In this document: positions 2,808 to 33,817 of the stretch, piece after piece
Layout: each line of letters opens with the position of its first letter
Numbering within the stretch: the stretch's first letter is position 1
DNA from: Polynucleobacter sp. JS-Safj-400b-B2
GTDB lineage: Bacteria > Pseudomonadota > Gammaproteobacteria > Burkholderiales > Burkholderiaceae
DNA length: 64,000 nucleotides
Reading direction: 5' to 3'
Assembly: GCF_018881975.1 (NCBI RefSeq)
Contig: NZ_JACVPJ010000001.1
Span: 62,001-126,000 of the forward strand
The notes under the pieces: model-generated
Seen by the model: only the letters and a program-made list of their open reading frames with translations
Told to the model about the DNA's origin: nothing
Databases searched by the model: none
Translations under genes and position numbers: made by a program

Positions 2808-2829
2808 GTACCTTTGGGTCTACTTTTGC

Positions 2830-3876
2830 TTATTCTTTATCAACTAAGGTACGCGCTTTTTCAACATCTTCACGATAAGCCTCGAAAATATTCTTAAGCG
2901 CATCGCTCATGGTTGTAGTTGGCTTCCAACCTAATTCACTCATCGTATTGTCAATTGCAGGGACGCGATTTTGAACGTCTTGATAGCCTTCGCCGTAGTA
3001 AGCGCCAGAAGTAGTTTCTACAATCTTTACTTCATTAGCAGTCTTTGCATACTCAGGAATACTGCGAGCAATTTCTAGCATCTGATTGGCTAGCTCACGA
3101 ATAGAATGATTGTTCTTTGGATTGCCGATGTTATAGATCTTGCCATTAGCAATATCATCTTTGTTGTCGATGATACGCATTAAGGCATCAATGCCATCAT
3201 CAACGTAAGTAAAGGCACGTTTCTGTGCGCCACCGTCAACCACGTTGATAGATTCGCCACGAACTATGTGACCTAGGAACTGAGTCACTACACGGGAAGA
3301 ACCTTCTTTTGGTGTGTAGATACTATCTAGACCGGGGCCAATCCAGTTAAACGGGCGGAAGAGGGTAAAGCGTAAGCCTTCCATGCCATAACCCCAGATC
3401 ACACGATCCATGAGTTGCTTGGAACAAGCGTAGATCCAGCGCGGCTTATTAATTGGACCGTAAACCATATTCGATTTAGCAGGATCAAATTCGCTATCTT
3501 CACACATTCCATATACTTCAGAAGTTGATGGGAACACTAAATGCTTCTTGTATTTGACTGCTGAGCGCACGATGGGGAGATTGGCTTCGAAGTCGAGCTC
3601 AAATACCTTAAGTGGTTGCTGGACATAAGTTGCAGGAGTTGCAATCGCAACTAAAGGGAGAATAACGTCGCATTTGCGGATATGGTATTCAACCCATTCT
3701 TTATTAATGGTGATATCACCTTCGAAGAAGTGCATGCGTGGATGATTGACTAAGTCACCAAGACGATCATTTTGCATATCCATGCCATAGACATCCCAGT
3801 CGGTTGTCTCGAGAATGCGCTTGGAAAGGTGGTGGCCAATAAAACCATTAACACCAAGAATGAGTACTTTTTTCAT
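2830..3876 (-). CDS. arnA: UDP-glucuronate oxidative decarboxylase (ArnA C-terminal half as a separate protein)
   Basis: A 348-residue extended SDR equal to the dehydrogenase half of E. coli ArnA, which oxidises UDP-GlcA at C4 and decarboxylates it to UDP-4-keto-arabinose. It has the Rossmann motif GVNGFIG (8-14), the Tyr149-x3-Lys153 pair (YACSK), and the Ser119-Glu120 pair in PSTSEVYG that corresponds to the ArnA residues used for decarboxylation. In enterobacteria this domain is fused to a formyltransferase; here the formyltransferase is the next gene upstream (3925-4794), 48 bases away. The neighbours complete the Ara4N pathway. Confidence 0.93.
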   Translation of the reverse strand: MKKVLILGVNGFIGHHLSKRILETTDWDVYGMDMQNDRLGDLVNHPRMHFFEGDITINKEWVEYHIRKCDVILPLVAIATPATYVQQPLKVFELDFEANLPIVRSAVKYKKHLVFPSTSEVYGMCEDSEFDPAKSNMVYGPINKPRWIYACSKQLMDRVIWGYGMEGLRFTLFRPFNWIGPGLDSIYTPKEGSSRVVTQFLGHIVRGESINVVDGGAQKRAFTYVDDGIDALMRIIDNKDDIANGKIYNIGNPKNNHSIRELANQMLEIARSIPEYAKTANEVKIVETTSGAYYGEGYQDVQNRVPAIDNTMSELGWKPTTTMSDALKNIFEAYREDVEKARTLVDKE

Positions 3877-3924
3877 CTTTACTGCCTCGTTTTAATCTAA
3901 TAAGTGTTGCTGCTCAGTTGCCAT

Positions 3925-4794
3925 TTAATTGCTAGCTGGAAACCATTCCAGTACTTCCACTGCTTGATGGTCGCCACAAATGCCGAATACCCGATTATCA
4001 ACCACTTGGATGCCACAAACCCCAAGATCGAGATTGGCTGGAAATGGCCCATTTAGGCTGGTGCGGGCCACGATCATGGTCTTGCCATCATGTGCCGTAA
4101 AGGCCCCTGGATAAGGAGGTGCAACCGCTCTAACGAGGTCATGGACCTGTTTAGCAGTCTGATTCCAATGAATTTGGCCATCTGCAGGCTTTCTACCGCC
4201 AAAATAGCTGCCTTTTTGGAGCTCGTTCGCCTTGCGGGGAACAATTCCTTTTAGAAGGCTAGGCAGGACCTGATCGATCACGTTCACGGCAGCCTGACTG
4301 ACCTTAGCAAATACATTAGTAGCGGTTTCATCTGGGCCGATGCTGACGGCTGCTTGCCCAACAATATCTCCTGCGTCCGGTTTTGCTTCCATGACGTGTA
4401 AAGTTGCGCCAGTCTCAGTCTCGCCATGCAGAATGGCCCAATTAACCGGTGCACGTCCTCGGTATTTGGGAAGAAGCGAGCCATGCATATTGAGTGCGGC
4501 AATTTTTGCGCATTGCAAAATCTGCCCCGGAATCATGAAGCGATAGTAGAAAGAAAAAATGTAATCTGGTGCTATCGCTTGAAACTTCGGAAGTAAAGTA
4601 AGCAACTCATCAGCGCTGGGTGTGATGTAAGAAATAGCTTTTTCTAGACAGAGTTTTTCAACGCTTCCAAACCAAACATTCTCATTGGGGTCGTCTTGGT
4701 GGGTTACCACTAAATCGACTTTTATGCCTGCGTTGAGAAGTGCTTTGAGGCAACTGACGCCAACATCGTGATAAGCAAAGACGACTGCGTGCAA
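3925..4794 (-). CDS. UDP-4-amino-4-deoxy-L-arabinose formyltransferase (ArnA N-terminal half as a separate protein)
   Basis: A 289-residue member of the Fmt family that uses N10-formyl-tetrahydrofolate to formylate UDP-Ara4N. The catalytic set is present at the same numbers known for E. coli ArnA: Asn102 and His104 (NMHGSLLPKYRGRAP) and Asp140 (KPDAGD). A C-terminal OB-like domain follows (about 200-289). Its start codon directly abuts the arnC stop (4795), so the two genes are translationally close. The separation of this domain from the decarboxylase is the main difference from the enterobacterial operon. Confidence 0.92.
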   Translation of the reverse strand: MHAVVFAYHDVGVSCLKALLNAGIKVDLVVTHQDDPNENVWFGSVEKLCLEKAISYITPSADELLTLLPKFQAIAPDYIFSFYYRFMIPGQILQCAKIAALNMHGSLLPKYRGRAPVNWAILHGETETGATLHVMEAKPDAGDIVGQAAVSIGPDETATNVFAKVSQAAVNVIDQVLPSLLKGIVPRKANELQKGSYFGGRKPADGQIHWNQTAKQVHDLVRAVAPPYPGAFTAHDGKTMIVARTSLNGPFPANLDLGVCGIQVVDNRVFGICGDHQAVEVLEWFPASN

Positions 4795-5757
4795 TTATTT
4801 TTTCTCTAAAACGGTTTGCACAACATAGCGAGGACGCTTGCGGATTTGCTGATAGATGCGACCAATATACTCACCTAATAGACCGAGTCCAAAGAGCATC
4901 ACACCAATCAAGAAGAAGGTAAGAGCAAAGAGGGTAAAAACACCCTCAACCTCAGCGCCCAGAACAAAGCGGCGCACTAGCAGGTAGATAAACAAGCTAC
5001 CAGCTGCAAGAGAGAGAAGCATGCCGAGTATTGAGAAAATCTGCAAGGGCATAACAGAAAATCCAGTCACTAAATCAAAGTTCAGACGAATCAATTGATA
5101 CAAACTGTATTTAGATTCACCAGCAAAACGCTCTTCATGCTTAACAGTAATCTCTACTGGATTTGCAGAAAAGGTATAAGCCAGTGCTGGAATAAAAGTA
5201 TTGCTCTCATCACATTGACGAACTAGATCAACAATGCGGCGACTATAGCCACGCAACATGCAGCCTTGATCAGTCATCGTGATACGGGTAATGTTTTCAC
5301 GCAAGCGATTCATGGCGCGCGAAGCAAATTTTCTAAAGAAGCTATCACGGCGATCGGCACGAATAGTGCCAACGTAATCATGACCTTTTAAGAGTTGCTC
5401 AGTGAGCGCATCAATTTCTTCAGGGGGATTTTGTAAGTCTGCATCTAAGGTGATGATGTGTTCGCCTTTGGCGTATTCAAAGCCGGCCATGATCGCCATA
5501 TGTTGACCAAAGTTGCTGTGGAATAAAACAGCACGAGTCACCTCGGGACGCAATTCAACTTGCTTGGAAAGAATGCCGGCGGAACGATCTGTACTGCCGT
5601 CATTTACGAATACGATCTCGTAGCTGATATTGCGTTTGCTGGCCAGAGCATCTAATGCTGGATAGAGGCGACTAAACAGGGCCTCTAGTCCGTCCTCCTC
5701 GTTGTAAACGGGGATAACAATACTGAGTGTTGGGTTGGCAACTAAATTTGCAGTCAT
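4795..5757 (-). CDS. arnC: undecaprenyl-phosphate 4-deoxy-4-formamido-L-arabinose transferase ArnC
   Basis: A 320-residue GT2 glycosyltransferase that moves Ara4FN from UDP to undecaprenyl phosphate on the cytoplasmic face. The N-terminal GT-A domain (about 10-220) carries VNDGSTD and the metal-binding Asp105-Ala-Asp107 (TLDADLQNP). Two strongly hydrophobic segments (about 235-262 and 270-300) are the expected C-terminal membrane hairpin. Length fits ArnC (about 322). It lies between arnB and the formyltransferase gene. The same architecture occurs in dolichol-phosphate mannose synthase-like enzymes, but the arn context settles the call. Confidence 0.92.
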   Translation of the reverse strand: MTANLVANPTLSIVIPVYNEEDGLEALFSRLYPALDALASKRNISYEIVFVNDGSTDRSAGILSKQVELRPEVTRAVLFHSNFGQHMAIMAGFEYAKGEHIITLDADLQNPPEEIDALTEQLLKGHDYVGTIRADRRDSFFRKFASRAMNRLRENITRITMTDQGCMLRGYSRRIVDLVRQCDESNTFIPALAYTFSANPVEITVKHEERFAGESKYSLYQLIRLNFDLVTGFSVMPLQIFSILGMLLSLAAGSLFIYLLVRRFVLGAEVEGVFTLFALTFFLIGVMLFGLGLLGEYIGRIYQQIRKRPRYVVQTVLEKK

Positions 5758-5798
5758 GGCGCAATTTTGCCTGATTCTGTAGGTTTAACCCAAGAACA

Positions 5799-6953
5799 CT
5801 AGTTTTTTCGGTATTTCTGCAAAATTCCGACCAATCCGCTGGCTATGCGGCCAATATCCTCATCGGTCATTGCGGGAAATAAGGGGAGAGTGAGAATGGA
5901 TCTGCCAATGCGTTCAGCAATTGGCGTATCCGATGTTTTGTAATCTTGATTTTTATAAAGAGTAAATCCAGTAATTGCAGGGTAATGAACGCCAGTGCCA
6001 ATACCAAGATCTTTTAACTCGGTCATCACTTGGGCGCGGTCTGTATTTAATTGATCAAGCGGCAAAACAACTTGAAACATATGCCAGTTACTATCAGTGA
6101 AATTTTCTACTGGAAGTTCTAAGCGCAAACTCTTCAATCCAACAGATTTCAATTCAGTACGAATCACATCAAAGTATTGACGGGCAAGTGCAGCACGACG
6201 TGCTTGATAAGAGGGGAGCTGCTTCAGTTGCTCAAGACCAATTGCTGCGTTCACATCAGTTAAGTTATCTTTTCCACCTAATACATCAACATCCATACCG
6301 TCCATACCTTGACGGGTCAAACCTTGAAGGCGGAACTTCTCGGCAAGCTTTGCTTCATCGAGATTATTGAGAACAAGGCAGCCACCCTCAACGGTAGTGA
6401 GATTCTTGTTGGCTTGAAAGCTAAAGCTCACCAGGTCGCCAAAGCTACCAATCTTCTTACCTTGCCACTGTGACCCAAAGGCTTGCGCTGCATCTTCGAT
6501 GACGCGAAGATTGTGTTGTTTTGCCAATGCGTAGAGCTGGTCCATATCCACAGGTAGACCAGCTAAATAGACTGGCATGATTGCACGAGTCTTTGAAGTG
6601 ATTGCAGCAGCAACTTTATTCAGATCAATATTGCGTGTAACGGGATCAATATCCACAAATACTGGTTTGGCGCCAACGCCCAAAATCACATTAGAAGTTG
6701 CTACCCAAGAAATTGGAGTGGTAATTACTTCATCGCCATCACCAATGCCGGCAACTTGCAGAGCGATCTTCATGGTTGCGGTGCCATTGGCAAAACAGCG
6801 TACCGGACGACCGCCAAAGTATTGACTTAAAGCAGCTTCAAACTCGGCCAACTTCGGTCCGGATGTCACCCATCCTGAACGCAATACCTCTGAAACAGCA
6901 TCAATGGTTTCTTGATTAAAGCTAGGGCGTGTGAAGGGGATGAAGTTTGACAT
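5799..6953 (-). CDS. arnB: UDP-4-amino-4-deoxy-L-arabinose--oxoglutarate aminotransferase ArnB
   Basis: A 384-residue DegT/DnrJ/EryC1 sugar aminotransferase that converts UDP-4-keto-arabinose to UDP-L-Ara4N with glutamate and PLP. The PLP lysine is Lys183 in FSFQANKNLTT, and EDAAQAFG (around 153-160) holds the Asp that contacts the PLP nitrogen. Length agrees with E. coli ArnB (about 380). The gene is 11 bases downstream of arnT and 41 bases upstream of arnC, consistent with one transcript. Confidence 0.93.
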   Translation of the reverse strand: MSNFIPFTRPSFNQETIDAVSEVLRSGWVTSGPKLAEFEAALSQYFGGRPVRCFANGTATMKIALQVAGIGDGDEVITTPISWVATSNVILGVGAKPVFVDIDPVTRNIDLNKVAAAITSKTRAIMPVYLAGLPVDMDQLYALAKQHNLRVIEDAAQAFGSQWQGKKIGSFGDLVSFSFQANKNLTTVEGGCLVLNNLDEAKLAEKFRLQGLTRQGMDGMDVDVLGGKDNLTDVNAAIGLEQLKQLPSYQARRAALARQYFDVIRTELKSVGLKSLRLELPVENFTDSNWHMFQVVLPLDQLNTDRAQVMTELKDLGIGTGVHYPAITGFTLYKNQDYKTSDTPIAERIGRSILTLPLFPAMTDEDIGRIASGLVGILQKYRKN

Positions 6954-6964
6954 GGTGTCCTATA

Positions 6965-8647
6965 TTACTGCGAGATATCTGGATGCTTAACAATGACCCT
7001 GCGTGAATCACGATCGACTTCCTGCATTGGGAAGCCCTGAGTCTTAAGCGTATCAAATTGCTCTGGAACCATGATGGCGTAGGCTGTTTGATCTTCTTGC
7101 CAGCGGGTAATAAAGGCGTCTAATGTCGACATCCAAAGTTCTGGCTCTTGATTAACCCCAAACTCAAGCTCATCGGGTGATTCAACCATGATCATCGTTC
7201 TGCCTAAATAGAAAGGCACGGTGTGATCTAAAAGACGTACTGAATAGAAGTTCACTTTTTCAGGAATGGAGGCTTTTACTCGCTCAACTAAATCGATGCC
7301 CGAGACAGCGCGACCCAAAGTCTCATGACCCGTTCCCGCGATGATGGCGCACAGAAAAAATCCACAAGCAAAACTCACAATACTTTGAGTGCCGTTACGT
7401 TTACTTTGCCATGCAGCATATGAGCTAAAACTCACTAGTGCAACTAATGCTGCAATAACCCAATAGGTGTATTGCGCATAAGCTTCAATTTCATCAGGCC
7501 TTGCTTGCTTGCCAATGGCATCCAAAAAGAAAAATCCAACGAGACCGAGAATTGCAAATCCAAAGGTCTGTAATTTCCATGGTAATGCCATGGTGTTGGT
7601 GTGACCAAGTAAGTGATCTAAACGATTGCCAATAATCAAAGCAAGTGCGGGAAAAACGGGGATGATGTAGCCGGGTAACTTAGAGCGTGAGACGCTAAAG
7701 AATGCAAAGATCACTAAAAACCAGCAGACCAATAACCAGCTTGCAGAGAACTCGCGGCGGCGCTCACCCCAGGCTTGTGCAAGTGACCCAGGAATTTGCA
7801 GAACCCAGGGAAGTAGGTCAATTAGCAGTAATGGCACGAAGTAATAGGCAGGACCCGTTCTACTATGTGCATCTTGTGTGAAGCGTTGCAGATGCTCATG
7901 AATAAAGAAGAATTCTAGAAATTCAGGATTGCGTTGCGCAACCAATATGAACCAAGGCGCAGTGATTGCCAAGAACAAGAGGCTGCCACTAAATAAGCGT
8001 AAGCGATCCCAGATTTTCCAGTCCCATGTACTGATGGAATAGGCAATAAAAACCATGGCAGGGATCGCTGCGCCAATGACGCCCTTGGACAAAGTAGCGA
8101 GCGCCATGAAAGCCCAGCAAGCCCACATCCAATTTCGACAACTCCCTTTGTTGTGAGAGGTTTGTGCAAGCAGCAGACTGCAAAGTGCAGCAACTAAAAA
8201 AGCAGATAGGCCCATGTCTAGTGAATTAAAGTGACCGCTGATGATCCACATTGGACTTGAGGCCAATACAACAGCTGCCAGCCATCCTGCTCTGGCGTTA
8301 TAAATTCGAGCGCCAGTAAATCCCACTAAAACAATTGTCAGGAAGCCAGTTAATGCGGCCCACAATCTTGCTTGCCAATCGCCAATACCAAATGCTTGAA
8401 ATGCAGCGGCAGTTGCCCAAGCTTGAAGAGGGGGTTTTTCAAAATACTTGTAGCCGTTGTAACGAGGTGTAATCCAATCACCAGTGACTAGCATTTCTCG
8501 GGCAATTTCTGCGTAGCGTCCTTCATCTGAAGGAATAAGGTGACGGTAATTAAGCGTGCCAAACCAGAGTAGGGCATAAATGATTACCAACAGCAAAATC
8601 TTGCCTGGATGCAGGGCTGAAGATTGCCGAATTTGGCCAAATTGCAT
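6965..8647 (-). CDS. arnT: lipid A 4-amino-4-deoxy-L-arabinose transferase ArnT
   Basis: A 560-residue GT83 (PMT-like) integral membrane enzyme that transfers Ara4N from undecaprenyl phosphate to lipid A phosphates on the periplasmic side, lowering the negative charge and polymyxin binding. It has a first membrane segment at about 16-34, then the periplasmic LIPSDEGRYAE loop with the catalytic Asp41-Glu42, about a dozen further hydrophobic segments and a soluble C-terminal part from about 440. The start codon overlaps the stop of the upstream Mth938-like gene (TAATG), implying translational coupling. This completes the Ara4N pathway. Confidence 0.92.
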   Translation of the reverse strand: MQFGQIRQSSALHPGKILLLVIIYALLWFGTLNYRHLIPSDEGRYAEIAREMLVTGDWITPRYNGYKYFEKPPLQAWATAAAFQAFGIGDWQARLWAALTGFLTIVLVGFTGARIYNARAGWLAAVVLASSPMWIISGHFNSLDMGLSAFLVAALCSLLLAQTSHNKGSCRNWMWACWAFMALATLSKGVIGAAIPAMVFIAYSISTWDWKIWDRLRLFSGSLLFLAITAPWFILVAQRNPEFLEFFFIHEHLQRFTQDAHSRTGPAYYFVPLLLIDLLPWVLQIPGSLAQAWGERRREFSASWLLVCWFLVIFAFFSVSRSKLPGYIIPVFPALALIIGNRLDHLLGHTNTMALPWKLQTFGFAILGLVGFFFLDAIGKQARPDEIEAYAQYTYWVIAALVALVSFSSYAAWQSKRNGTQSIVSFACGFFLCAIIAGTGHETLGRAVSGIDLVERVKASIPEKVNFYSVRLLDHTVPFYLGRTMIMVESPDELEFGVNQEPELWMSTLDAFITRWQEDQTAYAIMVPEQFDTLKTQGFPMQEVDRDSRRVIVKHPDISQ

Positions 8648-21361: not shown

Positions 21362-22594
21362 ATGACTGTTACGCTTAGTAGGCGTGCCAGTGATGTTCGG
21401 GTTATTGGTCTCATTAGCCTAGCTCACGGCGGCTCTCATTTCTTTCATTTAGTGCTTCCTCCCATGTTCCCATGGTTGAAGGGCGCTTTTGCATTGAGTT
21501 ATGCCGAACTCGGCTTGCTCATGTCAGTCTTCTTTGTTGTGTCTTGTATTGCTCAGGCAGCATCTGGTTTTTTAGTGGACCGTATTGGGGCTAGACCAGT
21601 TCTCTTCGGTGGTGTTGGTTTGCTTGTACTTGCAGCACTGGTGTATTCACAAAGCAATGGTTACGCCATGCTGTTACTGGGCGCAGTCATTGCTGGTTGC
21701 GGTAATGGTATTTTTCATCCTGTTGATTACACGCTTATCAATCACAAGGTGTCGTCACCCAATCTTCCATACGCCTATTCGATGCATGGTGTCACCGGAT
21801 ATTTAGGTTGGGCAGCTGCGCCAGCCTTCATGGTGGCAATTGCTCAATTTGCTGATTGGCGTATTGCATTCTTATCTGCAGCTCTATTAGAAGCTTGTGT
21901 CTTGGTGTTACTTTGGATCAATAGAAAATACCTCTTAGATAATGTCAAAGAGCGTCATGAGAATACGCATGTAAGTACTCAGGCGGCCAATCCTGGCATT
22001 GCTCAGGAGAGTCCATTTGCATTCTTGCGGTTGCCAGCAGTTTGGTTATGTTGGGTCTTCTTTTTCTTTAGTATGGCGTCTACATCTAGTCTGCAATCTT
22101 TTGCGCCAAGCGCACTCTTTAGTATTTATGAGGTTCCTTTAAATATAGGCAGTTACTACATCACGCTTTTGGCATTAGGGAGTGCTGGAGGGGTTTTATT
22201 TGGGGGCTACTTGGCGGCAAAGTTGCAGGCACCAGAAAGAATTGTCTCCACATGCCTCTCAATTACGGTAGTGATGTGCTTGCTGTTATCTACAGGATTT
22301 ATTTCAATTGATCTCATTCCCATCATTTTCTTTGCTCTGGGATTCGGGTATGGGGTGGTGGCGCCTTCGCGAGATCTATTGGTGAAAAAGGCAACCCCAC
22401 AAGGCGTAGCTGGACGTGTTTACGGAATTGTCTATTCGGGGATTGATTTAGGCGCGGCAGTTGGCCCATTTATTTTTGGCTTCTTTATGGATGCTGGTTT
22501 ACCTAAAGCCTTGTTCCTTGGAATCGTCGTATTCCAGCTCATGATTATTCCAACCGTTTTTCAGGTGAAATCAAAAGGTCGGCAAGCAGCCTAA
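21362..22594 (+). CDS. MFS transporter, Fsr-like
   Basis: A 410-residue permease with about twelve membrane segments. The opening LISLAHGGSHFFHLVLPPMFP resembles the fosmidomycin-resistance (Fsr) branch of the MFS, and GFLVDRIGARPVLFGG is the loop 2-3 signature. A soluble linker (about 195-215) divides the two halves. It converges on pxpA, overlapping it by four bases at the stops. Proximity to the 5-oxoprolinase genes hints at uptake or release of a related compound, but the convergent arrangement gives no operon evidence. Confidence 0.8.
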   Translation: MTVTLSRRASDVRVIGLISLAHGGSHFFHLVLPPMFPWLKGAFALSYAELGLLMSVFFVVSCIAQAASGFLVDRIGARPVLFGGVGLLVLAALVYSQSNGYAMLLLGAVIAGCGNGIFHPVDYTLINHKVSSPNLPYAYSMHGVTGYLGWAAAPAFMVAIAQFADWRIAFLSAALLEACVLVLLWINRKYLLDNVKERHENTHVSTQAANPGIAQESPFAFLRLPAVWLCWVFFFFSMASTSSLQSFAPSALFSIYEVPLNIGSYYITLLALGSAGGVLFGGYLAAKLQAPERIVSTCLSITVVMCLLLSTGFISIDLIPIIFFALGFGYGVVAPSRDLLVKKATPQGVAGRVYGIVYSGIDLGAAVGPFIFGFFMDAGLPKALFLGIVVFQLMIIPTVFQVKSKGRQAA

Positions 22595-23310
22595 AGTAAT
22601 GCGGCTTTAATCTTTTTCGCAAATTCAACCGCATGCGGATTATCGCCATGAATGCACAGGGTATCGGCCTGGATTTTGATCTCACTACCATCAATTGCAG
22701 TCACTTTCCCATTCATTGACATACCAATCGCTTGATTGAGTGCTTCCGATTCATCCTCAATAACAGCGCCTGCCTGACTTCGCGGAACCAGAAAACCTTC
22801 TTTAGTGTATTTGCGATCTGCGAATACCTCTTGCCATACCAGTACATTCAATTCTTTTGCAGCATCAATCATGCAGCTTCCTGCTAAACCATACAAAATG
22901 ACTTCAGGACCTAAATCTTTTACTGCCCGCACTATTCCTCTAGCAAGCTTCATGTCCTTGGCTGCTTGGTTATATAGGGCACCATGAGGTTTGACATGAT
23001 GTAATGCATTTCCGGCAGCCTTAACAAAAGCTTTTAAGGCGCCAGCCTGGTAGAGGACATAGTTATATGCATCTTCCTCAGATATAGCCATCTCTCGCCT
23101 TCCAAATCCCTCTAGATCTGGAAGCCCAGGGTGCGCTCCAATAAGCACGCTCTTTTGGGTTGCCATTTCAACCAACTTCTTCATGCGAGATGGATCACCG
23201 GCATGCCATCCACAGGCGATGTTGGTAGATGTAATGTAGTTAAGTAATAGAGCATCGTCTCCCATTTCCCAGGCACCAAAGCCTTCGCCCATATCGCTAT
23301 TAATATCCAT
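22591..23310 (-). CDS. pxpA: 5-oxoprolinase subunit A (LamB/YcsF family)
   Basis: A 239-residue member of the LamB/YcsF family, the A subunit of the ATP-dependent PxpABC 5-oxoprolinase that opens 5-oxoproline to glutamate. It opens with the family signature MDINSDMGEGFG and has NIACGWHAGDP (about 31-41), GAHPGLPDLEGFGRR and HVKPHGALYN. Its ATG overlaps the stop of the upstream fused pxpBC gene (TAATG), showing translational coupling of the complex's components. Confidence 0.93.
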   Translation of the reverse strand: MDINSDMGEGFGAWEMGDDALLLNYITSTNIACGWHAGDPSRMKKLVEMATQKSVLIGAHPGLPDLEGFGRREMAISEEDAYNYVLYQAGALKAFVKAAGNALHHVKPHGALYNQAAKDMKLARGIVRAVKDLGPEVILYGLAGSCMIDAAKELNVLVWQEVFADRKYTKEGFLVPRSQAGAVIEDESEALNQAIGMSMNGKVTAIDGSEIKIQADTLCIHGDNPHAVEFAKKIKAALL

Positions 23311-25052
23311 TATGTATTTCCACTAGTTTGAATAATTGTTTGAATCGAGTTAATGGTTGATTGTTGTAACTTTAACGCTTCCGTATTCAAAAGATCTGCC
23401 TCCTGAATATCGACAGGAATAAATTGTATTTTTTCACCCGGCCTAACTTGTGCTAGCTTCACCATATCAGAGCGAATAATTTCAGCTAAGCGTGGATACC
23501 CACCGGTGGTTTGGTGCTCTGCAAGCATCACAATAGGTTCATGTGATGGGGGGAGCTGTACGGTTCCAAACGTAATTGCTTGTGATGGGATGTTGGGCAA
23601 ATCCTTTTTTACATTGAACTCACCTTGAAGGCGCAGACCCATACGATTGCTTTGATTGCTCACAGTCCAAATGGTGGACCAAAATAGTTCTCCTTCTTTG
23701 ATCGAGAGGGAGGATAAATGCGGACCTGCTAAACAGTGGACTTGAGTAATTGCTTTTAAAGGCACAAAAGGGGAGCTCACATGCCATTTTGTATAGCATG
23801 GCAATTGATCGTCTTTGAATAAGGACTTCAAGAAGATGGATTTGAGTGGCGCATGAGGATTCTTGAGCGATAAGACTTGACCCTTTTCTATACGCTTTGG
23901 TCCGATATCTGCGCTAATGTGTGATCCTGAGCGACCCAAAATCTCTGGTAGCTGTAACCCACCACCGATCGCTAATAGCGCTCGAAATCCTGAATTGAAC
24001 GGTAAGAATTTAAGCGTACTTCCCTTTTCTAACCAGACGGGTCTATTCCCGGGGATGCGTTGACCATTCACAATGCCATCGCAATCGGCCCCAACCCAGG
24101 CGATACAAGTTGCTTGATGAAATAGAAGGGTTGGACCGCTAGATGTCATTTCTATAGCAGCCATTCCTATTGAATTGCCCACTAAAGCATTGGCAAGATG
24201 TAATGAGGATAAATCACAAGCACCTCCAGGGCCCACTGCCCAATGTGAAAATCCTAATCTTGGTTCATCTTGAATGCTCGTAAAAGTTCCCGACTGTAAT
24301 ACTTCAATAGCTCCTTGGGCATTATTTTTATCTAATGCGCGGATAATTTCTTGATGTTTATTTTTCTGATCTAATTTTTGAAACTCATCTAATGTAATTT
24401 CTTCAATTTGCATTTGGTCGCCCGCTATAAATAATCCTGGCGGATCATTTTGAATGTCAAACATTTGATTAGGAGATCTGCCAATCAGATTCCATCCCCC
24501 AGGTGTAGTTCGTGGATAAATTGCGGTTTGTAGCTCTGCAATTGCCACACTGCCTTTGGGTACTGCTGGCCGCGGAGAGGGTAGACGAGGTAAAAGCAAT
24601 TTGGGGTTAAGGCCGCTAAAGTACGCAAACCCAGGCATAAAGCCTAGAATATCTGCCGTATAGAGGTTGTTCTTGTGAAGGTAGATTATCTCTTCAATGG
24701 ATAGTTTGCAGGCCTTAGCAATGGCGTGTATATCTAATGCAACATCTGGGTGATAGCAAACTTGAATGCGATGAATCTTAGTCGGATAAGTTGAATACCT
24801 CTTTTGCTTTTCTTGTTGCTTGCTGATTTTTTCTAGGTCTGCGAAAGCTTGCTGGCGCGTTAAGCTTGGCTCCTTAATGCCACTCTGCAATTGAATAACC
24901 AATGAATCAAGCCCGGGCACGATTTCAGCGGCCCATATGGGTTTGTTGGCTAAGAGTAGTTTGCTAAGTTCGTGAATATCTTTTAAAGCTTGCTTTGATT
25001 TTGAGAAATCAATCGATATGCTGTGGTCGCCAATTAGTGTGCAATGCATCAT
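23310..25052 (-). CDS. fused 5-oxoprolinase subunits B and C (PxpB-PxpC)
   Basis: One 580-residue chain holding two subunits that are separate in E. coli and B. subtilis. Residues about 1-230 are a KipI/PxpB domain (opening LIGDHSISIDF, later GFMPGFAYFSGL, RTTPGGWNLIGR and PPGLF). Residues about 250-570 are a KipA/PxpC biotin-carboxylase-like domain (VLQSGTFTSIQDEPRLGFSHWAVGPGG, GFRALLAIGGG, QTTGGYPRLA). It is transcribed before pxpA and overlaps it. A divergent MFS gene lies upstream. The fusion is seen directly; the activity is inferred from PxpABC. Confidence 0.9.
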   Translation of the reverse strand: MMHCTLIGDHSISIDFSKSKQALKDIHELSKLLLANKPIWAAEIVPGLDSLVIQLQSGIKEPSLTRQQAFADLEKISKQQEKQKRYSTYPTKIHRIQVCYHPDVALDIHAIAKACKLSIEEIIYLHKNNLYTADILGFMPGFAYFSGLNPKLLLPRLPSPRPAVPKGSVAIAELQTAIYPRTTPGGWNLIGRSPNQMFDIQNDPPGLFIAGDQMQIEEITLDEFQKLDQKNKHQEIIRALDKNNAQGAIEVLQSGTFTSIQDEPRLGFSHWAVGPGGACDLSSLHLANALVGNSIGMAAIEMTSSGPTLLFHQATCIAWVGADCDGIVNGQRIPGNRPVWLEKGSTLKFLPFNSGFRALLAIGGGLQLPEILGRSGSHISADIGPKRIEKGQVLSLKNPHAPLKSIFLKSLFKDDQLPCYTKWHVSSPFVPLKAITQVHCLAGPHLSSLSIKEGELFWSTIWTVSNQSNRMGLRLQGEFNVKKDLPNIPSQAITFGTVQLPPSHEPIVMLAEHQTTGGYPRLAEIIRSDMVKLAQVRPGEKIQFIPVDIQEADLLNTEALKLQQSTINSIQTIIQTSGNT

Positions 25053-27558: not shown

Positions 27559-28857
27559 ATGGCAGATCGCAAAGCAGAAATCGCAGCATTACAAAAAGAC
27601 TGGGATACCAATCCACGCTGGAAAGGCATTACTCGTGGCTATACAGCTGAGGACGTAGTGCGTCTTCGTGGTTCATTAAAGATTGAGCACACATTAGCTA
27701 AGCATGGCGCTGAGCGTCTTTGGGAATTGGTAAATAACGAAGCTTACGTTAACTGTTTAGGTGCTTTGACTGGTGGTCAAGCAATGCAGCAAGTTAAAGC
27801 TGGCGTACAAGCAATTTACTTATCTGGTTGGCAGGTTGCTGCTGACGGTAACTCATACGCAGCGATGTATCCAGACCAATCTTTGTATCCAGTAGATTCA
27901 GTTCCTAAAATGGTTGAGCGTATTAATAACTCATTCCAACGTGCTGATGAAATCCAAACAGCTAAAGGTATCTACAAAGGTGACGCTGGCTATATTGAAT
28001 ATTTTGCTCCTATCGTTGCTGACGCCGAAGCTGGTTTCGGTGGTGTATTGAATGCATTTGAATTAAGTAAAGCATTGATTAAGCAGGGTGCAGCTGGCGT
28101 TCACTTCGAAGACCAATTGTCTTCTGTTAAGAAGTGCGGTCACTTGGGCGGTAAAGTATTGTTACCTACTGCTGAATCTGTTCAGAAATTGATCTCTGCG
28201 CGTTTAGCTGCTGACGTTATGGGCGTTTCCACCATCATTTTGGCTCGTACTGATGCAGAAGCCGCTGATTTGTTGACATCTGATTACGATGCAAACGACA
28301 AGCCATTCTTGACGGGTGAGCGCACTCCAGAAGGATTCTACAAAACACGTAAGGGCTTGGATCAAGCGATCTCACGTGGTTTAGCTTACGCTGCTTATGC
28401 TGATATGGTTTGGTGTGAAACTGGTACTCCTGACCTTGAGTTTGCTCGTCAGTTTGCCGAGGCAATTCGTGCGAAGTTCCCAGGCAAGATGTTGGCTTAC
28501 AACTGCTCACCTTCCTTCAACTGGAAGAAAAACTTGGACGACGCAACCATTGCTAAATTCCAGCGTGAATTAGGCGCAATGGGTTACAAGTATCAGTTCA
28601 TCACATTAGCCGGCATCCACTCTATGTGGTACAACATGTTCGACTTAGCGCAAGACTACATGCAACGCGGTATGACTGCATATATCGAGAAAGTACAAGA
28701 GCCAGAATTTGCTGCTCGTGATCGTGGTTACACATTCGTTTCACATCAGCAAGAAGTTGGAACTGGTTACTTCGACGATGTAACTACCGTGATTCAAGGT
28801 GGTAAGTCTTCTGTAACAGCACTGACTGGTTCTACTGAAGAAGAGCAGTTCCATTAA
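27559..28857 (+). CDS. aceA: isocitrate lyase
   Basis: A 432-residue enzyme that splits isocitrate into succinate and glyoxylate, the first step of the glyoxylate shunt. The catalytic Cys motif KKCGH is visible ([11 protein letters not shown], about 191-201), as are [11 protein letters not shown]-type N-terminal and [11 protein letters not shown] motifs. Length fits the prokaryotic short form. The codon use looks uniform and strongly biased, as in a highly expressed gene. It has its own promoter region with palindromes and its own terminator; malate synthase is not in the window. Confidence 0.96.
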
Positions 28858-28968: not shown

Positions 28969-29409
28969 ATGACCAATTGCGTACTCTGTAAAGATGATCT
29001 TGAGCCCGAAGAGGGGCAACTGATTTGGCGGGGAGATGACTGCCGTGTCATTCTGGTAAACGACCCTGATCTACCTGGTTTCTGTAGGGTGATTTGGAAT
29101 CGCCATGTGGCCGAGATGACTGATCTGAGCTACGGAGAGCGCGACCATTTAATGACTTTGGTATTTGCCGTTGAAGAGGCAATTCGATTTGTAATGCATC
29201 CTGACAAAGTCAATATTGCCGCCTTAGGTAACATGGTTCCCCACATACATTGGCATGTCATTCCACGCTACAAGGACGATGCCTACTTTCCTGGTTCTGT
29301 GTGGTCCTCGAGAACTCAGCAGCCTTCTAAGGCGGCATTAGAAGGCAGGAGGGCTCTAGCTGCAAAACTCCCTGATGCAATTCGCTCAGCAATCTCTCAA
29401 ATGTATTAA
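28969..29409 (+). CDS. HIT-family hydrolase/nucleotide-binding protein
   Basis: A 146-residue histidine-triad protein with the catalytic HIHWHVIPR at about 90-98. Such proteins cleave AMP or other groups from nucleoside phosphoramidates or dinucleotides. An N-terminal CVLCKDD suggests a metal or disulfide feature of no known role. It lies between the aceA terminator and a CoA-transferase operon; a short 5' leader separates it from both. The exact substrate cannot be told. Confidence 0.88.
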   Translation: MTNCVLCKDDLEPEEGQLIWRGDDCRVILVNDPDLPGFCRVIWNRHVAEMTDLSYGERDHLMTLVFAVEEAIRFVMHPDKVNIAALGNMVPHIHWHVIPRYKDDAYFPGSVWSSRTQQPSKAALEGRRALAAKLPDAIRSAISQMY

Positions 29410-29475: not shown

Positions 29476-30147
29476 GTGATACAAAAAATGATTCACAGCG
29501 TGGCTGATGCTGTGCGAGATATTGCCAGTGGTTCAACCATTTTGGTTTCGGGTTTTGGTGGTGCTGGCTCACCGATGTTCTTATTGGATGCACTGGCAGA
29601 GCAAGGCGCTAAAGATCTGACCATTATTAGCAACAATGCGGGTAACTCAGGCATAGGTATATCTAAATTGATCGCCAGAGGACAAGTCAAGAAGATGGTC
29701 TGCTCTTTTCCGCGTCAACCAGAATCTGGTGCATTTGATGACTTGTATCGCGCAGGAAAAATAGAATTAGAGCTAGTGCCGCAAGGAACGCTTGCTGAGC
29801 GTATTCGGGCGGGTGGTGCCGGTATCGGTGGTTTTTATACCCCTACTGGATTTGGTACGGAGCTTGCCTTGGGAAAAGACACTCGAGTGATTGATGGCGT
29901 TAATCATATTTTTGAATTCGCTATCAAAGCTGACTACGCACTCATTAAGGCAGATAAAGGCGATCGATGGGGTAACCTGACCTATCACCGCACAGGTCGT
30001 AACTTTGGCCCTATTATGGCTACCGCTGCGCGTTGCACCATTGCACAAGTTAATCAAGTAGTTGAGTTGGGTGATTTGGATCCAGAGGTCATTGTTACCC
30101 CAGGAATTTTTGTAAAACGGGTTGTACTTGCTGGGAAAAAATCATGA
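29476..30147 (+). CDS. 3-oxoacid (3-oxoadipate-like) CoA-transferase subunit A
   Basis: About 223 residues from the GTG at 29476, chosen because GGAGA lies six bases upstream; a further ATG at 29488 is possible. It is family I CoA-transferase alpha subunit: GSTILVSGFGGAGSP (the GxGGF-type CoA-binding loop), SNNAGN, VCSFPRQ and ALIKADKGDRWGNLTY. By eye it is closer to PcaI (3-oxoadipate:succinyl-CoA transferase) than to acetoacetate transferases. It overlaps the beta-subunit gene by four bases. No other beta-ketoadipate genes are present, so the natural oxoacid is open. Confidence 0.85.
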   Translation: MIQKMIHSVADAVRDIASGSTILVSGFGGAGSPMFLLDALAEQGAKDLTIISNNAGNSGIGISKLIARGQVKKMVCSFPRQPESGAFDDLYRAGKIELELVPQGTLAERIRAGGAGIGGFYTPTGFGTELALGKDTRVIDGVNHIFEFAIKADYALIKADKGDRWGNLTYHRTGRNFGPIMATAARCTIAQVNQVVELGDLDPEVIVTPGIFVKRVVLAGKKS

Positions 30148-30806
30148 TTGATCTCTCTAAGGTGCAAAAGCGATCTACAGCAGATATTGCTAAGCGGATT
30201 GTTCAAGATATTCCAGATGGTGCTCATGTGAATTTAGGGATTGGGCAGCCCATGACTATTTCTAACTATCTCCCATCGGATAAAGAGATTCTGCTGCATT
30301 CAGAAAACGGCCTTCTTGGAATGGGTCCTTTAGCTCAAGGTGATGAAATTGATGAGGAGCTGGTAAATGCGGGTAAGCAGCCTGTCACTATGCTCCCTGG
30401 TGCATCACTGTGTCATCATGCAGACTCGTTTGTGATGATCCGAGGCGGACATATTGATATCTGCGTTTTAGGTGCTTTTCAGGTTTCCGTAAAAGGGGAT
30501 ATCGCAAATTGGCGCACTGGTGACCCTAAAGCGATTCTGGCTGTTGGTGGTGCAATGGATCTCGCCCTTGGTGCTAAAAAATTATTCGTGATGATGGAGC
30601 ATTTAACAAAGTCAGGTGAATCTAAGTTGGTGTCTGAATGCACTTATCCATTAACAGCCTTAGCTGCGGTCGATTCTATCTATACAGATCTGGCAACAAT
30701 TGAAGTTACTCCAGAAGGATTGCTCGCTGTCGATTGGGTGAATGAATTGAGTTTTGAAGAGTTGCAAGAAATCAGTGGGGTCCCACTGATAAATGCAAGG
30801 CAATGA
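30144..30806 (+). CDS. 3-oxoacid (3-oxoadipate-like) CoA-transferase subunit B
   Basis: A 220-residue beta subunit that bears the catalytic glutamate in HSENGLLGMGP (about 52-62), which forms the glutamyl-CoA thioester. Other marks are NLGIGQP, ADSFVMIRGGHIDICVLGAFQV and GAMDLALGAKK, again PcaJ-like. It is coupled to subunit A by an ATGA overlap. Seventy bases downstream is a thiolase-fold gene, the place where PcaF (a true thiolase) would be expected in a beta-ketoadipate operon. Confidence 0.87.
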   Translation: MIDLSKVQKRSTADIAKRIVQDIPDGAHVNLGIGQPMTISNYLPSDKEILLHSENGLLGMGPLAQGDEIDEELVNAGKQPVTMLPGASLCHHADSFVMIRGGHIDICVLGAFQVSVKGDIANWRTGDPKAILAVGGAMDLALGAKKLFVMMEHLTKSGESKLVSECTYPLTALAAVDSIYTDLATIEVTPEGLLAVDWVNELSFEELQEISGVPLINARQ

Positions 30807-30876
30807 GCCAAATCTTTATTGTTCTGATTTTGCAGTCTCTACCATTGGGTAGTATTTTTATTCCTTAGGAGGGTCT

Positions 30877-32046
30877 ATGTCTTTTTCTAAAAATGCCTGT
30901 ATCGCTGGAATTTATGAGCATCCCCTTCGAGTTGCTCCCAATCATACGGTTGCTCAATTGCATGCTGAAGTTGCCTACGGCGCCCTGCAAGATGCTGGTT
31001 TGACATTGAATGATGTTGATGGCTATTTTTGTGCGGGCGACGCTCCAGGAATGGGTCCTGTTTCAATGGCTGATTACTTAGGATTAAAGAACTTAAGTTA
31101 CCTGGACTCAACTGATACTGGTGGATCGTCTTATTTAACCCATGTAAATCATGCAGCTCGAGCTATCCATGCTGGGCAATGCCGTGTAGCCTTAATTACT
31201 TTGGCTGGCCGACCAAAGTCAGAGGGCTCTAGTGGCACCCAAGTGCGTAGCCAATATGCTAGCGCTCCCGATTTTGCTTTTGAAAAACCGTATTCCCCCG
31301 CGCCATTAAATACTTATGCCATGTGTGCCATGCGCCATATGTATGAATTCGGAACTACTAGTGAGCAACTAGCTTGGATTAAAGTGGCTGCCTCGCATCA
31401 TGCGCAGCACAATCCTAATGCGTTATTAAAAGATGTTTTAACTGTTGAAGATGTTTTGAATTCTCCAATGATTGCAGATCCATTGCATCGTGCAGATTGT
31501 TGTGTGGTTACCGATAGTGGCGGTGCGCTGGTAGTGGTGCATCCAGACATTGCTAAGACATTGAAGAGGCCTGTGATTACGATGATGGGTGCTGGCGAGT
31601 CCACTAAAGGCCAAATGGGCGGCAAGGTTGATTTAACCTATTCTGGTTTAGCATGGGCTGCCCCGCGCGCGTTTGAGGAGGCGAAGTTAACGCCTGAGCA
31701 GATTCGATATGCATCAATTTACGATAGCTTCACTATTACCGTTCTGATTCAACTTGAGGATCTGGGATTTTGTAAAAAAGGCGAGGGTGGTCGGTTTGTT
31801 GAGGATGGGCAGTTGATTTCCGGGAGGGGGAGGCTAGCTTTTAATACCGATGGCGGTGGTCTTTGCAATAACCACCCTGCAAATCGTGGCGGCATGACAA
31901 AGGTCATCGAGGCAGTAAGACAGCTCCGAGGCGAGGCTCATCCCGCGGTGCAGGTACCCAATCTTGAATTTGCTTTAGCGTCCGGTATTGGCGGCGCCTT
32001 AGGGACACGCCATGGTGCCGCAACTCTTATTATGGGGAGGTTGTAA
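30877..32046 (+). CDS. thiolase-fold protein without the thiolase cysteines (Ltp2-like)
   Basis: A 389-residue thiolase-superfamily protein related to the SCP-x/lipid-transfer branch. Where thiolases carry the nucleophilic Cys after a short Asn/Gly motif, this has LDSTDTGGSSYLTH (about 72-85) with no Cys; near the C-terminus the Cys-x-Gly-Gly-Gly motif is replaced by ASGIGGALG. The His motif survives as GGGLCNNHPANRGG. Thiolytic chemistry is therefore unlikely. It is coupled to a DUF35 protein (stop/start overlap region at 32046), the arrangement of the steroid retro-aldolase Ltp2 and its DUF35 partner. An SD AGGAGG precedes the ATG. Confidence 0.82.
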   Translation: MSFSKNACIAGIYEHPLRVAPNHTVAQLHAEVAYGALQDAGLTLNDVDGYFCAGDAPGMGPVSMADYLGLKNLSYLDSTDTGGSSYLTHVNHAARAIHAGQCRVALITLAGRPKSEGSSGTQVRSQYASAPDFAFEKPYSPAPLNTYAMCAMRHMYEFGTTSEQLAWIKVAASHHAQHNPNALLKDVLTVEDVLNSPMIADPLHRADCCVVTDSGGALVVVHPDIAKTLKRPVITMMGAGESTKGQMGGKVDLTYSGLAWAAPRAFEEAKLTPEQIRYASIYDSFTITVLIQLEDLGFCKKGEGGRFVEDGQLISGRGRLAFNTDGGGLCNNHPANRGGMTKVIEAVRQLRGEAHPAVQVPNLEFALASGIGGALGTRHGAATLIMGRL

Positions 32047-32453
32047 TGTCAGAAGTAAATCAAGTAGCGCATCATCTGCCTAGTCCAATCATTAATCCAG
32101 AAAATCAGGTTTTTTGGCAAGCCGCCCAAAAAGGAAGGCTGGTATTAAAAGTATGCAACTCCTGCAAGGAAGTTCACTACTATCCCCGAACAATTTGTCC
32201 TCACTGTGGTGGTAATGACACCGTATGGCTTGATTCTGAAGGGCTTGGTGAAATTTATTCATACACGGTCATGAGGCGTGGAGTAGAGATTCCTTTTGCA
32301 ATGGCCTATGTTCTTCTTAAAGAAGGCATCTCTTTGCTGACGCACATATGCAATTGCGATTTTGATGCTATTCGTATTGGGCAAAAGGTTCGGGTAGTAT
32401 TTCAAGAAACTCAGGACGGTCAGAAGACGCATCTATTTGAGCCCTTGGCCTAA
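32046..32453 (+). CDS. DUF35 OB-fold protein with N-terminal zinc ribbon
   Basis: A 135-residue protein with a rubredoxin-like zinc ribbon (CNSCKEVHYYPRTICPHCGG, about 38-57, two Cys-x2-Cys knuckles) and a C-terminal OB-fold (about 65-130) that binds acyl-CoA in related complexes. Such proteins are obligatory partners of thiolase-fold aldolases or hydratases, shaping the active site. Its start overlaps the end of the thiolase-fold gene, in keeping with a stoichiometric complex. Confidence 0.88.
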   Translation: MSEVNQVAHHLPSPIINPENQVFWQAAQKGRLVLKVCNSCKEVHYYPRTICPHCGGNDTVWLDSEGLGEIYSYTVMRRGVEIPFAMAYVLLKEGISLLTHICNCDFDAIRIGQKVRVVFQETQDGQKTHLFEPLA

Positions 32454-32607: not shown

Positions 32608-33597
32608 TTATTCAACTTCAATTTTTGCCTGTTGAGCAACTAACTCCCACTTCTTCTTTTCTGCGGCAATAAAAATTTTGGTATTGGCTGGCGTATCACC
32701 CACAGCCCAGCCACCAAGATCTTTCCAACGTTGCTTGATTTCTGGGGTTTCTAGTGCCTTCTTAACCGCTAAGTACAGCTTATCAATGATAGGTTTGGGG
32801 GTGCCGGCAGGCACGAATAGGCCAAACCAAGCGGTCACCTCAAAGTTAGGATAACCCGATTGAATCATTGTGGGGACATCAGGCAACTCCGCAACACGAT
32901 TTTTGCTGGTAACTGCTAAAGCGCGTAATTTTCCAGATTTAATATATTGCATAGAGCTGGGTAGATTGTCTACCATCATGCTAGTTTGGCCAGCAAGAAG
33001 ATCTGCCAATGCGGGACCAGCCCCCTTATAGGGCACATGAATAATGTCAATGCCAGCCTGAGTTCTGAACAATTCCCCGGACATATGGATTGACTGACCA
33101 CGGCCGGATGATGCAAACGAATATTTGCCGGGATTGGCTTTGGCTAATGCCACAAGCTCGGCTACCGTTTTAGCAGGAACCTCTGGATTTACTACCAATA
33201 CATTTGGATTGGCAATCACAATCGTTATCGGCTCCATATCTTCCATTTTGTATGGAAGATTTTTATAGAGACTGTAGTTGATTGCATTTGGGCCAATATT
33301 GCCCATCGCCATCGTATAACCATCTGCTGGTGCGGCAAGTAGTGCTTGAATGCCAATGATGCCTGCTCCACCTGCTTTATTTTCCACAATCACGGTCTGA
33401 CCGAGCTCTTTACCTAGCAAATCAGACAACGCGCGCGAGGCAATATCGGTGGTTCCACCTGGAGCCGCAGTCACAATAATTTTGATCGGCTTATTAGGAA
33501 AGGGTTGAGCTAAGGCTGACTGACTCGCTAATATGGGCGCTACGAATAAGAAAGTACTAAATAAACATGCACGTCTAACAAAATTCAGTCTAAACAT
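32608..33597 (-). CDS. Bug-family periplasmic solute-binding protein (tripartite tricarboxylate type)
   Basis: About 329 residues from the ATG at 33595-33597, preferred over an upstream ATG at 33684 because GGAGA lies just before it and a signal peptide then begins at once (basic FVRRA, hydrophobic core, cut after SALAQ). The mature part has PNKPIKIIVTAAPGGTTDI, the Bug signature binding loop, and VENKAGGAGIIG. Bug proteins bind carboxylates or aromatic acids for TctAB-type carriers; no TctA/B genes are here, as is usual for betaproteobacterial Bug proteins. Ligand unknown. Confidence 0.88.
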   Translation of the reverse strand: MFRLNFVRRACLFSTFLFVAPILASQSALAQPFPNKPIKIIVTAAPGGTTDIASRALSDLLGKELGQTVIVENKAGGAGIIGIQALLAAPADGYTMAMGNIGPNAINYSLYKNLPYKMEDMEPITIVIANPNVLVVNPEVPAKTVAELVALAKANPGKYSFASSGRGQSIHMSGELFRTQAGIDIIHVPYKGAGPALADLLAGQTSMMVDNLPSSMQYIKSGKLRALAVTSKNRVAELPDVPTMIQSGYPNFEVTAWFGLFVPAGTPKPIIDKLYLAVKKALETPEIKQRWKDLGGWAVGDTPANTKIFIAAEKKKWELVAQQAKIEVE

Positions 33598-33817
33598 AGG
33601 TGTCTCCAACGCGGGTCGGTGTAATAGTGATAAGGGGATCTTGAAAGCCCGCTTGCTAAATACTAAACACATATTGCTATTCATTCAATCCTCCGATAAT
33701 AAATTTCTGGGTACGGCGGTAGGATGATTACCCTAAGTACTAGTAAGTCAGAGCCCCTCAGGCTGTATCAGTCCTAGCTGAAATACATCATTACCTAAAG
33801 ATAATTTTGCTCTGTTG

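Follow-up and report, generated by a model that had tools for sequence, protein, structure and literature searches.

A stretch of 64,000 nucleotides from Polynucleobacter sp. JS-Safj-400b-B2 (assembly GCF_018881975.1, contig NZ_JACVPJ010000001.1, positions 62,001 to 126,000 of the forward strand; hereafter the window) carries a block of four genes encoding the two subunits of a PcaIJ-type CoA-transferase (CtfA and CtfB, together CtfAB), a protein with a thiolase fold that is devoid of the cysteine residues typical of thiolases, and a small DUF35 zinc-ribbon protein (Table 1). All of these components had been recognised in the initial annotation of the window, and family and domain matches find each of them at its assigned place. 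Within the block, the genes for the two transferase subunits overlap by 4 bases and those for the thiolase-fold and DUF35 proteins by 1 base, and a gap of 70 bases lies between CtfB and the thiolase-fold gene. Translation of CtfA most likely starts at the GTG at 29476, which is preceded by GGAGA and corresponds to the start in Polynucleobacter relatives better than the longer open reading frame from 29443. Scans returned 6 promoter-like sites against a mean of 10.5 in shuffled sequence, and 8 terminator-like sites against 5.9 (standard deviation 2.6), one of which falls inside the gap of 70 bases.

Table 1. The four-gene block and its nearest neighbours, in coordinates of the window
Feature	Position	Strand	Basis and remarks
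CtfA, CoA-transferase subunit A, PcaI/ScoA family	29476..30147	+	TIGR02429, 351 bits; start as in relatives; side branch within the PcaI family in a quick tree
CtfB, CoA-transferase subunit B, PcaJ/ScoB family	30144..30806	+	TIGR02428, 275.4 bits; overlaps subunit A
Thiolase-fold protein without thiolase cysteine residues, NF006010/PRK08142 clade; YDSF at 282-285, His333	30877..32046	+	Pfam, NCBIfam, alignment, tree, model
Stand-alone DUF35 protein, C4 zinc ribbon and OB fold	32046..32453	+	zf-ChsH2, OB_ChsH2_C; top hit by sequence in the PDB: ChsH2(DUF35), 6OK1
HIT-domain protein, directly upstream of CtfA; frequent neighbour, not thought to be a member of the unit	28969..29409	+	Domain match
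Isocitrate lyase, neighbour only	27559..28857	+	Family match; near-universal in the genus
TctC/Bug solute-binding protein, convergent; differs from the Bug protein inside the block of other strains	32608..33684	-	PF03401

CtfAB and the thiolase-fold/DUF35 pair are one conserved block in the genus, and their linkage exceeds chance. A search of 151 Polynucleobacter genomes, that of the window included, recovered 34 copies of the thiolase-fold orthologue (at least 86% identity) in 33 genomes, with two fragments (G222 and G307). CtfA lies on the same strand within 5 kb upstream of 31 of the 34 orthologues, which bears out the earlier claim that a CoA-transferase is joined to the pair. Of the three exceptions, two come from fragmented assemblies in which the two genes are on different contigs (G273 and G278), and the third is a contig of 3.4 kb (L215 of G252) on which CtfB, a Bug gene, the thiolase-fold gene and the DUF35 gene follow one another. 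The spacing between CtfA and the thiolase-fold gene falls into two classes, one of about 0.7 kb (n = 7, including the window) and one of 1.7-1.8 kb (n = 24), and in the annotated loci of the latter class the extra space holds a TctC/Bug gene. The convergent TctC protein of the window is 96% identical to a separate TctC protein in L176, and the Bug proteins encoded inside the operon are 40-43% identical to it.

The linkage could also be a plain neighbourhood effect in which functionally unrelated genes have gathered at a variable island beside the isocitrate lyase and HIT genes. The site is indeed variable, with about 5.4 kb of inserted DNA in L032 and catabolic islands in G286 and G306. Yet the order of the genes is maintained, they still adjoin closely or overlap, and three genomes have the block in this same order with no isocitrate lyase in the surrounding stretch (L172, L173 and L179), which makes this explanation highly improbable.

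The thiolase-fold protein matches the Pfam family Thiolase_C_1 and belongs to the NCBIfam family NF006010 (PRK08142) with a score of 716 bits, far over the curated cut-off of 462; it is the sole match of its kind in its genome. In an alignment with 4U4E, the aldolases Sal and Ltp2, the Pyrococcus thiolase 7YVY and part of the benzoylsuccinyl-CoA thiolase, the column of the thiolase nucleophile holds Gly83, where 7YVY and three ENAC-type relatives have cysteine, and the column of the cysteine in the YDCY motif of Sal holds Ser284. Both catalytic cysteines are thus lacking, as had been noted from the translation, with the qualification that another near-invariant cysteine, Cys330, is present three residues ahead of His333. 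The clade was represented by 122 distinct sequences that are at least 55% identical to the window protein, of which 32, counting the window itself, reach 86% or more. No variation occurs among them at Gly83, Tyr282, Asp283, Ser284, Phe285 and His333, and 121 have Cys330. The sole exception, L101, has asparagine there; as it is among the few clade members from outside Polynucleobacter that have CtfAB close by, this is evidence against an obligatory nucleophilic role of Cys330. In more distant rows the motif varies (YDAF, YDHF, YDCF, YDCY, HDAF and others), and where 7YVY, BbsB and the ENAC-type rows have the histidine of an HDxF motif, the window protein has tyrosine, like the aldolases. Judged from these columns, the clade has the tyrosine base of the aldolases, keeps the GHP-motif histidine of SCP2-type and classical thiolases and has lost their nucleophilic cysteine, a combination which is read here as a third active-site arrangement, made up of Tyr, Ser and His and partly common to 4U4E.

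An AlphaFold model based on 45 aligned sequences shows a thiolase fold, with a mean predicted local distance difference test score of 83.2 and a predicted template modelling score of 0.88. The solved structures with the highest Z scores are Sal (46.7), Ltp2 (44.7) and 4U4E (44.0), while Foldseek E-values put 4U4E first and Sal and Ltp2 next. These are followed, at a Z of about 43, by trypanosomal SLP, the archaeal thiolase of the HMG-CoA synthase complex and the cysteine-bearing 7YVY (42.7). A quick maximum-likelihood analysis of 73 selected rows, in which long branches were flagged, gave a PRK08142 clade of 45 rows with an approximate likelihood-ratio test (SH-aLRT) value of 100. It groups with 4U4E and a group of ten rows with YDAF or YDHF motifs (support 99), and stands apart from the cysteine-bearing rows (support 98) and from Sal and Ltp2, so that within the limits of this method and choice of rows there is no grouping with TcLtp2. 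The order of the deep groups is not settled, given the length of several deep branches and the weakness of the deepest forks. Clustering of the window protein with true cysteine-bearing thiolases, which would have spoken against the initial annotation, did not occur in this tree.

The DUF35 protein has 135 residues, matches zf-ChsH2 and OB_ChsH2_C in Pfam and contains the four cysteines C37-x2-C40-x10-C51-x2-C54. The spacing Cys-x2-Cys-x10-Cys-x2-Cys is described as the canonical C4 type of DUF35 in a published study (PMC12329534). The partnership with the thiolase-fold protein extends well beyond the genus: in a set of 94 loci (L032-L125; 5 Polynucleobacter-like, 75 other genome loci and 14 plasmid loci), 90 have a DUF35 match no more than 400 bases downstream of the thiolase-fold gene. 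Of the remaining four, L115 has a DUF35 gene by annotation, L093 lies on a contig that stops 146 bases past the thiolase-fold gene, L120 has its DUF35 gene elsewhere, and L073 has none.

Pairs of this kind have known precedents, as Sal and Ltp2 are retro-aldolases with DUF35 partners according to the same study (PMC12329534). The steroid aldolase CtSal-CtShy(DUF35) (9MYR) shares with the window pair the thiolase fold, the DUF35 partner, the exchange of the nucleophilic cysteine for glycine and the tyrosine base of a YDxx motif (PMC12329534), and CtSal is the best structural match by Z (root-mean-square deviation 2.3 over 371 residues). For Sal itself, its authors state there that the glycine at the nucleophile position rules out thiolysis. 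The window protein differs in having Ser284 in place of the essential Cys304 and His333 in place of Gln352, and in its separate position in the tree. The two DUF35 partners differ as well: that of Shy is fused to a MaoC hydratase domain and has a C3H1 zinc site (PMC12329534), whereas the DUF35 protein of the window stands alone and has C4 spacing. The aldolase TcLtp2-ChsH2(DUF35) (6OK1) likewise combines a thiolase fold with DUF35, the tyrosine of a YDxF motif and glycine at the nucleophile position; here the window protein has serine for the histidine of YDHF and His333 for the second catalytic tyrosine, Tyr344. The Ltp2 precedent invoked in the initial annotation therefore stands as a relative in fold, partner and tyrosine base; it is not the same enzyme, as the second tyrosine of Ltp2 and the cysteine of Sal are both absent and the tree keeps the groups apart.

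Closer in sequence is 4U4E, a putative thiolase of Sphaerobacter thermophilus, which comes first in the sequence search of the PDB as well as by Foldseek E-value and shares the YDSF motif and the HP histidine; it has serine in the column of Cys330 and falls outside the PRK08142 clade. A thiolase fold with a DUF35 subunit is also present in the benzoylsuccinyl-CoA thiolase BbsAB (7PXP/7PYT) and in PhlABC (5M3K), where the DUF35 assignment follows the same study (PMC12329534). In structural alignments, however, BbsB is only 25-26% identical and has HDAF for the YDSF of the window, and PhlC is 20% identical.

CtfAB belongs to the PcaIJ family, with subunit A scoring 351 bits against TIGR02429 (cut-off 128.5) and subunit B 275.4 bits against TIGR02428 (cut-off 243.55); the closest solved structure by sequence is the succinyl-CoA:3-ketoacid transferase 3CDK. 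CtfA is 58-64% identical to proteins encoded beside PcaF or another thiolase. Among plasmid relatives with 61-64% identity, a thiolase gene adjoins in all six that were examined among the 25 matches listed (named pcaF in four and thiolase family protein in two). PcaIJ-like pairs within the genus (58-62% to CtfA) adjoin a PcaF-like thiolase in all seven stretches examined (L208-L214); these thiolases are 68-79% identical to annotated PcaF and have the cysteine in an NRLCGS motif, and several of the stretches lie near pcaD-like and weakly pcaH-like genes. CtfAB of the window differs from this arrangement in that its partner is the thiolase-fold/DUF35 pair in the place of PcaF, as had been observed initially, and in a quick tree of 40 chosen PcaI-family rows, with long branches flagged, CtfA is part of a distinct group of 22 rows (support 93). 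One genome, G327, holds both the block and a PcaIJ/PcaF system. A second CtfAB was seen in L174 (G200:C53, 6762-8104), with a subunit A 72% identical to that of the window, among genes that by our own reading resemble a ring-hydroxylating dioxygenase, an alpha/beta hydrolase and an amidohydrolase; this suggests that the transferase branch serves more than one route.

The kinship with PcaIJ raises the main rival to a retro-aldol reaction, namely that CtfAB makes a 3-oxoacyl-CoA and that the thiolase-fold protein is an unusual thiolase which stands in for PcaF and thiolyses or hydrolyses this product by means of a relocated Cys330 and His333. The position of CtfA within the PcaI family, the thiolase genes adjoining the plasmid relatives and the conservation of His333 and Cys330 all fit this explanation. 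The window's own genome has three CoA-transferase pairs and a single Thiolase_C match; as this match lies near phaC/phaB-like genes (own reading), no separate PcaF was found there, which also fits. Against it stand the glycine at the nucleophile position in every clade sequence, the asparagine for Cys330 in the very locus L101 that has CtfAB nearby, and the aldolase-like tyrosine where the HDxF histidine of the thiolases would be. Moreover, no intradiol dioxygenase match was found in the genome, which leaves it without the usual source of 3-oxoadipate, so that 3-oxoadipate would need to be imported. An unusual thiolase is for these reasons considered unlikely, albeit the most serious of the competing explanations. 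A complete beta-ketoadipate pathway with a swapped thiolase was rejected on the same lack of a dioxygenase match, and with no adjoining PcaF either, the block shows no link to that pathway.

Taken together, the evidence makes it possible, and in our tentative view preferable to any one alternative, that the four genes act together in the catabolism of a carboxylic acid, whose activation with CoA is followed by a retro-aldol-type cleavage of a carbon-carbon bond by a complex of the thiolase-fold and DUF35 proteins. This reading draws on the linkage of 31 of the 34 orthologues, on the presence of the retro-aldolases Sal and Ltp2 with their DUF35 partners among the nearest folds, on the retention of their base tyrosine and on the exchange of the nucleophilic cysteine for glycine in all 122 sequences. 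That the genes act as a unit is further suggested by the TctC/Bug gene at the wider spacing, by the PcaIJ-like pairs of the genus that keep a PcaF of their own and by the presence of both systems in G327. In such a route, the acid would probably be captured by the Bug-type binding protein encoded in the block of many relatives, a copy which the window does not have, and the PcaIJ-like CoA-transferase would then pass CoA to it from a donor such as succinyl-CoA. The complex would split a beta-hydroxyacyl-CoA between its alpha and beta carbons in a retro-aldol reaction, with Tyr282 of the YDSF motif deprotonating the beta-hydroxyl and His333, perhaps with Cys330, standing in as proton donor. The products would be acetyl-CoA or another short acyl-CoA and an aldehyde or ketone. 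The activate-then-cleave core of the initial annotation is thus plausible in view of the conserved block, the nearest folds and the tree position, with edges that were drawn too wide, as the larger route with neighbouring genes does not hold.

Several observations weigh against a retro-aldol unit. PcaIJ-family transferases are known to act on 3-oxo acids, whereas a retro-aldolase needs a 3-hydroxyacyl-CoA, and neither a hydratase nor a dehydrogenase is encoded in the four-gene block. The second tyrosine of Ltp2 is absent and serine sits at the position of Cys304, a residue required by Sal, whose C304S variant had no detectable activity (PMC12329534). Sal and Ltp2 differ from the cysteine-bearing 7YVY by merely 2-4 Z units, so that the fold alone decides neither for an aldolase nor for a thiolase. 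In five genomes (G286, G306, G297, G314 and G243), the thiolase-fold orthologue is missing next to CtfAB; the first four have a more distant YDAF-type relative at least 10 kb away or on another contig. Finally, all five Polynucleobacter-like loci have a PcaIJ/SCOT-type transferase no more than 8 kb from the pair, but the same is true of only 2 of the 75 other genome loci (L101 and L106) and 1 of the 14 plasmid loci (L125), which sets the genus apart from other NF006010/PRK08142 members in the loci examined. These 80 loci of relatives were the best 80 of a longer list and lean towards close relatives.

The last two points lend themselves to another explanation, in which the pair is free-standing with a job of its own, possibly a condensation or acyl transfer, and the CoA-transferase serves another reaction in the genus. 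In L038, L051 and L072, the pair lies, by our own reading, among housekeeping-type genes, which would fit such independence. Tight linkage in the genus, which holds in both spacing classes and also where the block is away from isocitrate lyase, argues against it, as do L101, L106 and L125, where a transferase is encoded close to the pair, and a free-standing pair is judged somewhat less likely even than an unusual thiolase. Elsewhere, the common neighbours are acyl-CoA ligases, CaiB-type transferases, acyl-CoA dehydrogenases, hydratases, short-chain dehydrogenases/reductases (SDRs) and Bug proteins, and an IpdAB-like transferase lies near the pair instead in L044 and L114; in loci rich in G+C, picking of open reading frames by length was poor, and neighbours were identified by tblastn with a restricted set of reference proteins, which shows only genes of the kinds in that set. 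From this variety of activating enzymes, the CoA-activating step seems exchangeable across loci. The locus L101 comes from a record assigned to Planococcus glaciei, with a pair at 69-70% identity to the thiolase-fold protein of the window and CtfAB (57% and 51%) downstream, a wide jump between phyla.

The initial annotation had extended the retro-aldol route to the isocitrate lyase and to a pair of major facilitator superfamily (MFS) transporter and lactonase genes, an extension which was not upheld. Of the 151 genomes, 148 contain a match to isocitrate lyase (5 of these distant, with E-values of about 1e-8 to 1e-12), as opposed to the 33 with the orthologue. Counted by hand over these 33 genomes, the isocitrate lyase gene is found upstream of CtfA at a distance of up to 1 kb in 20, of 2.4 kb in one and of about 6 kb in three; in eight it is on a different contig, and one genome gave no match. 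The order of isocitrate lyase, HIT and CtfAB is found in many relatives, and the enzyme is a frequent neighbour without being bound to the block. The isocitrate lyase gene appears broken in two genomes of the genus, 1.6-1.7 Mb in size, with fragments in both (G094:C1:1072808-1073659 and G213:C1:362461-363362) and stops in G094. The pair of MFS and amidohydrolase genes was rejected as a member in the same way, as the amidohydrolase (E-values up to 1e-60) varies independently: it is present in 22 of the 151 genomes, 12 of them without the orthologue. Its share, again by hand count, is higher with the orthologue (10 of 33) than without it (12 of 118), in a count that ignores the relatedness of strains.

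The surroundings of the block in other strains hint at the kind of substrate. In G203, genes for an acyl-CoA dehydrogenase, MmgE/PrpD, a 2-hydroxyacid dehydrogenase and a class II aldolase precede the block, and genes resembling isocitrate/isopropylmalate dehydrogenase, an SDR and the carboxymuconolactone-decarboxylase family follow it; G286 also has MmgE/PrpD and class II aldolase genes, and G286 and G306 have further members of this set. To judge from such gene content, small, oxidised carboxylic acids may be involved. Islands around CtfAB with many TctC/Bug, MmgE/PrpD, class II aldolase, isopropylmalate-dehydrogenase-like, SDR and carboxymuconolactone-decarboxylase-family genes were seen in several genomes of the genus (L165-L168 and L172). 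The insert in L032 (2235-7580), which lies between HIT and CtfA, carries genes resembling those of tripartite ATP-independent periplasmic (TRAP) transporters and a second pxp-like set; a pxp-like gene set is present in the window itself (22591-25052, minus strand). Further away in the window (1890-8647, minus strand), translations read by eye resemble the aminoarabinose (arn) pathway of lipid A.

The PRK08142 family is large and widespread, and the clade is annotated solely as "thiolase domain-containing protein" in the records examined. Titles and abstract openings of the open-licence literature yielded neither an assigned reaction for PRK08142 nor an operon of a CoA-transferase with a DUF35-thiolase pair. 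A broader proposal, more doubtful than the four-gene unit itself, is that PRK08142 constitutes a third, separately wired class of DUF35-dependent carbon-carbon lyases with a thiolase fold, marked by YDSF, the histidine and Cys330 and spread over Proteobacteria, Actinomycetota and haloarchaea, which in Polynucleobacter may have been joined with a side branch of PcaIJ and a Bug protein into a short route of import, activation and cleavage for a carboxylic acid that bypasses both the beta-ketoadipate pathway and beta-oxidation. If the protein is a retro-aldolase, genomes in which its gene is read as a thiolase would have a different reaction, and reconstructions of beta-oxidation that use the PRK08142 protein as the last step would be wrong. 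The Polynucleobacter operon would be a compact system for finding this reaction, because maybe just two enzymes stand between the acid and the products.

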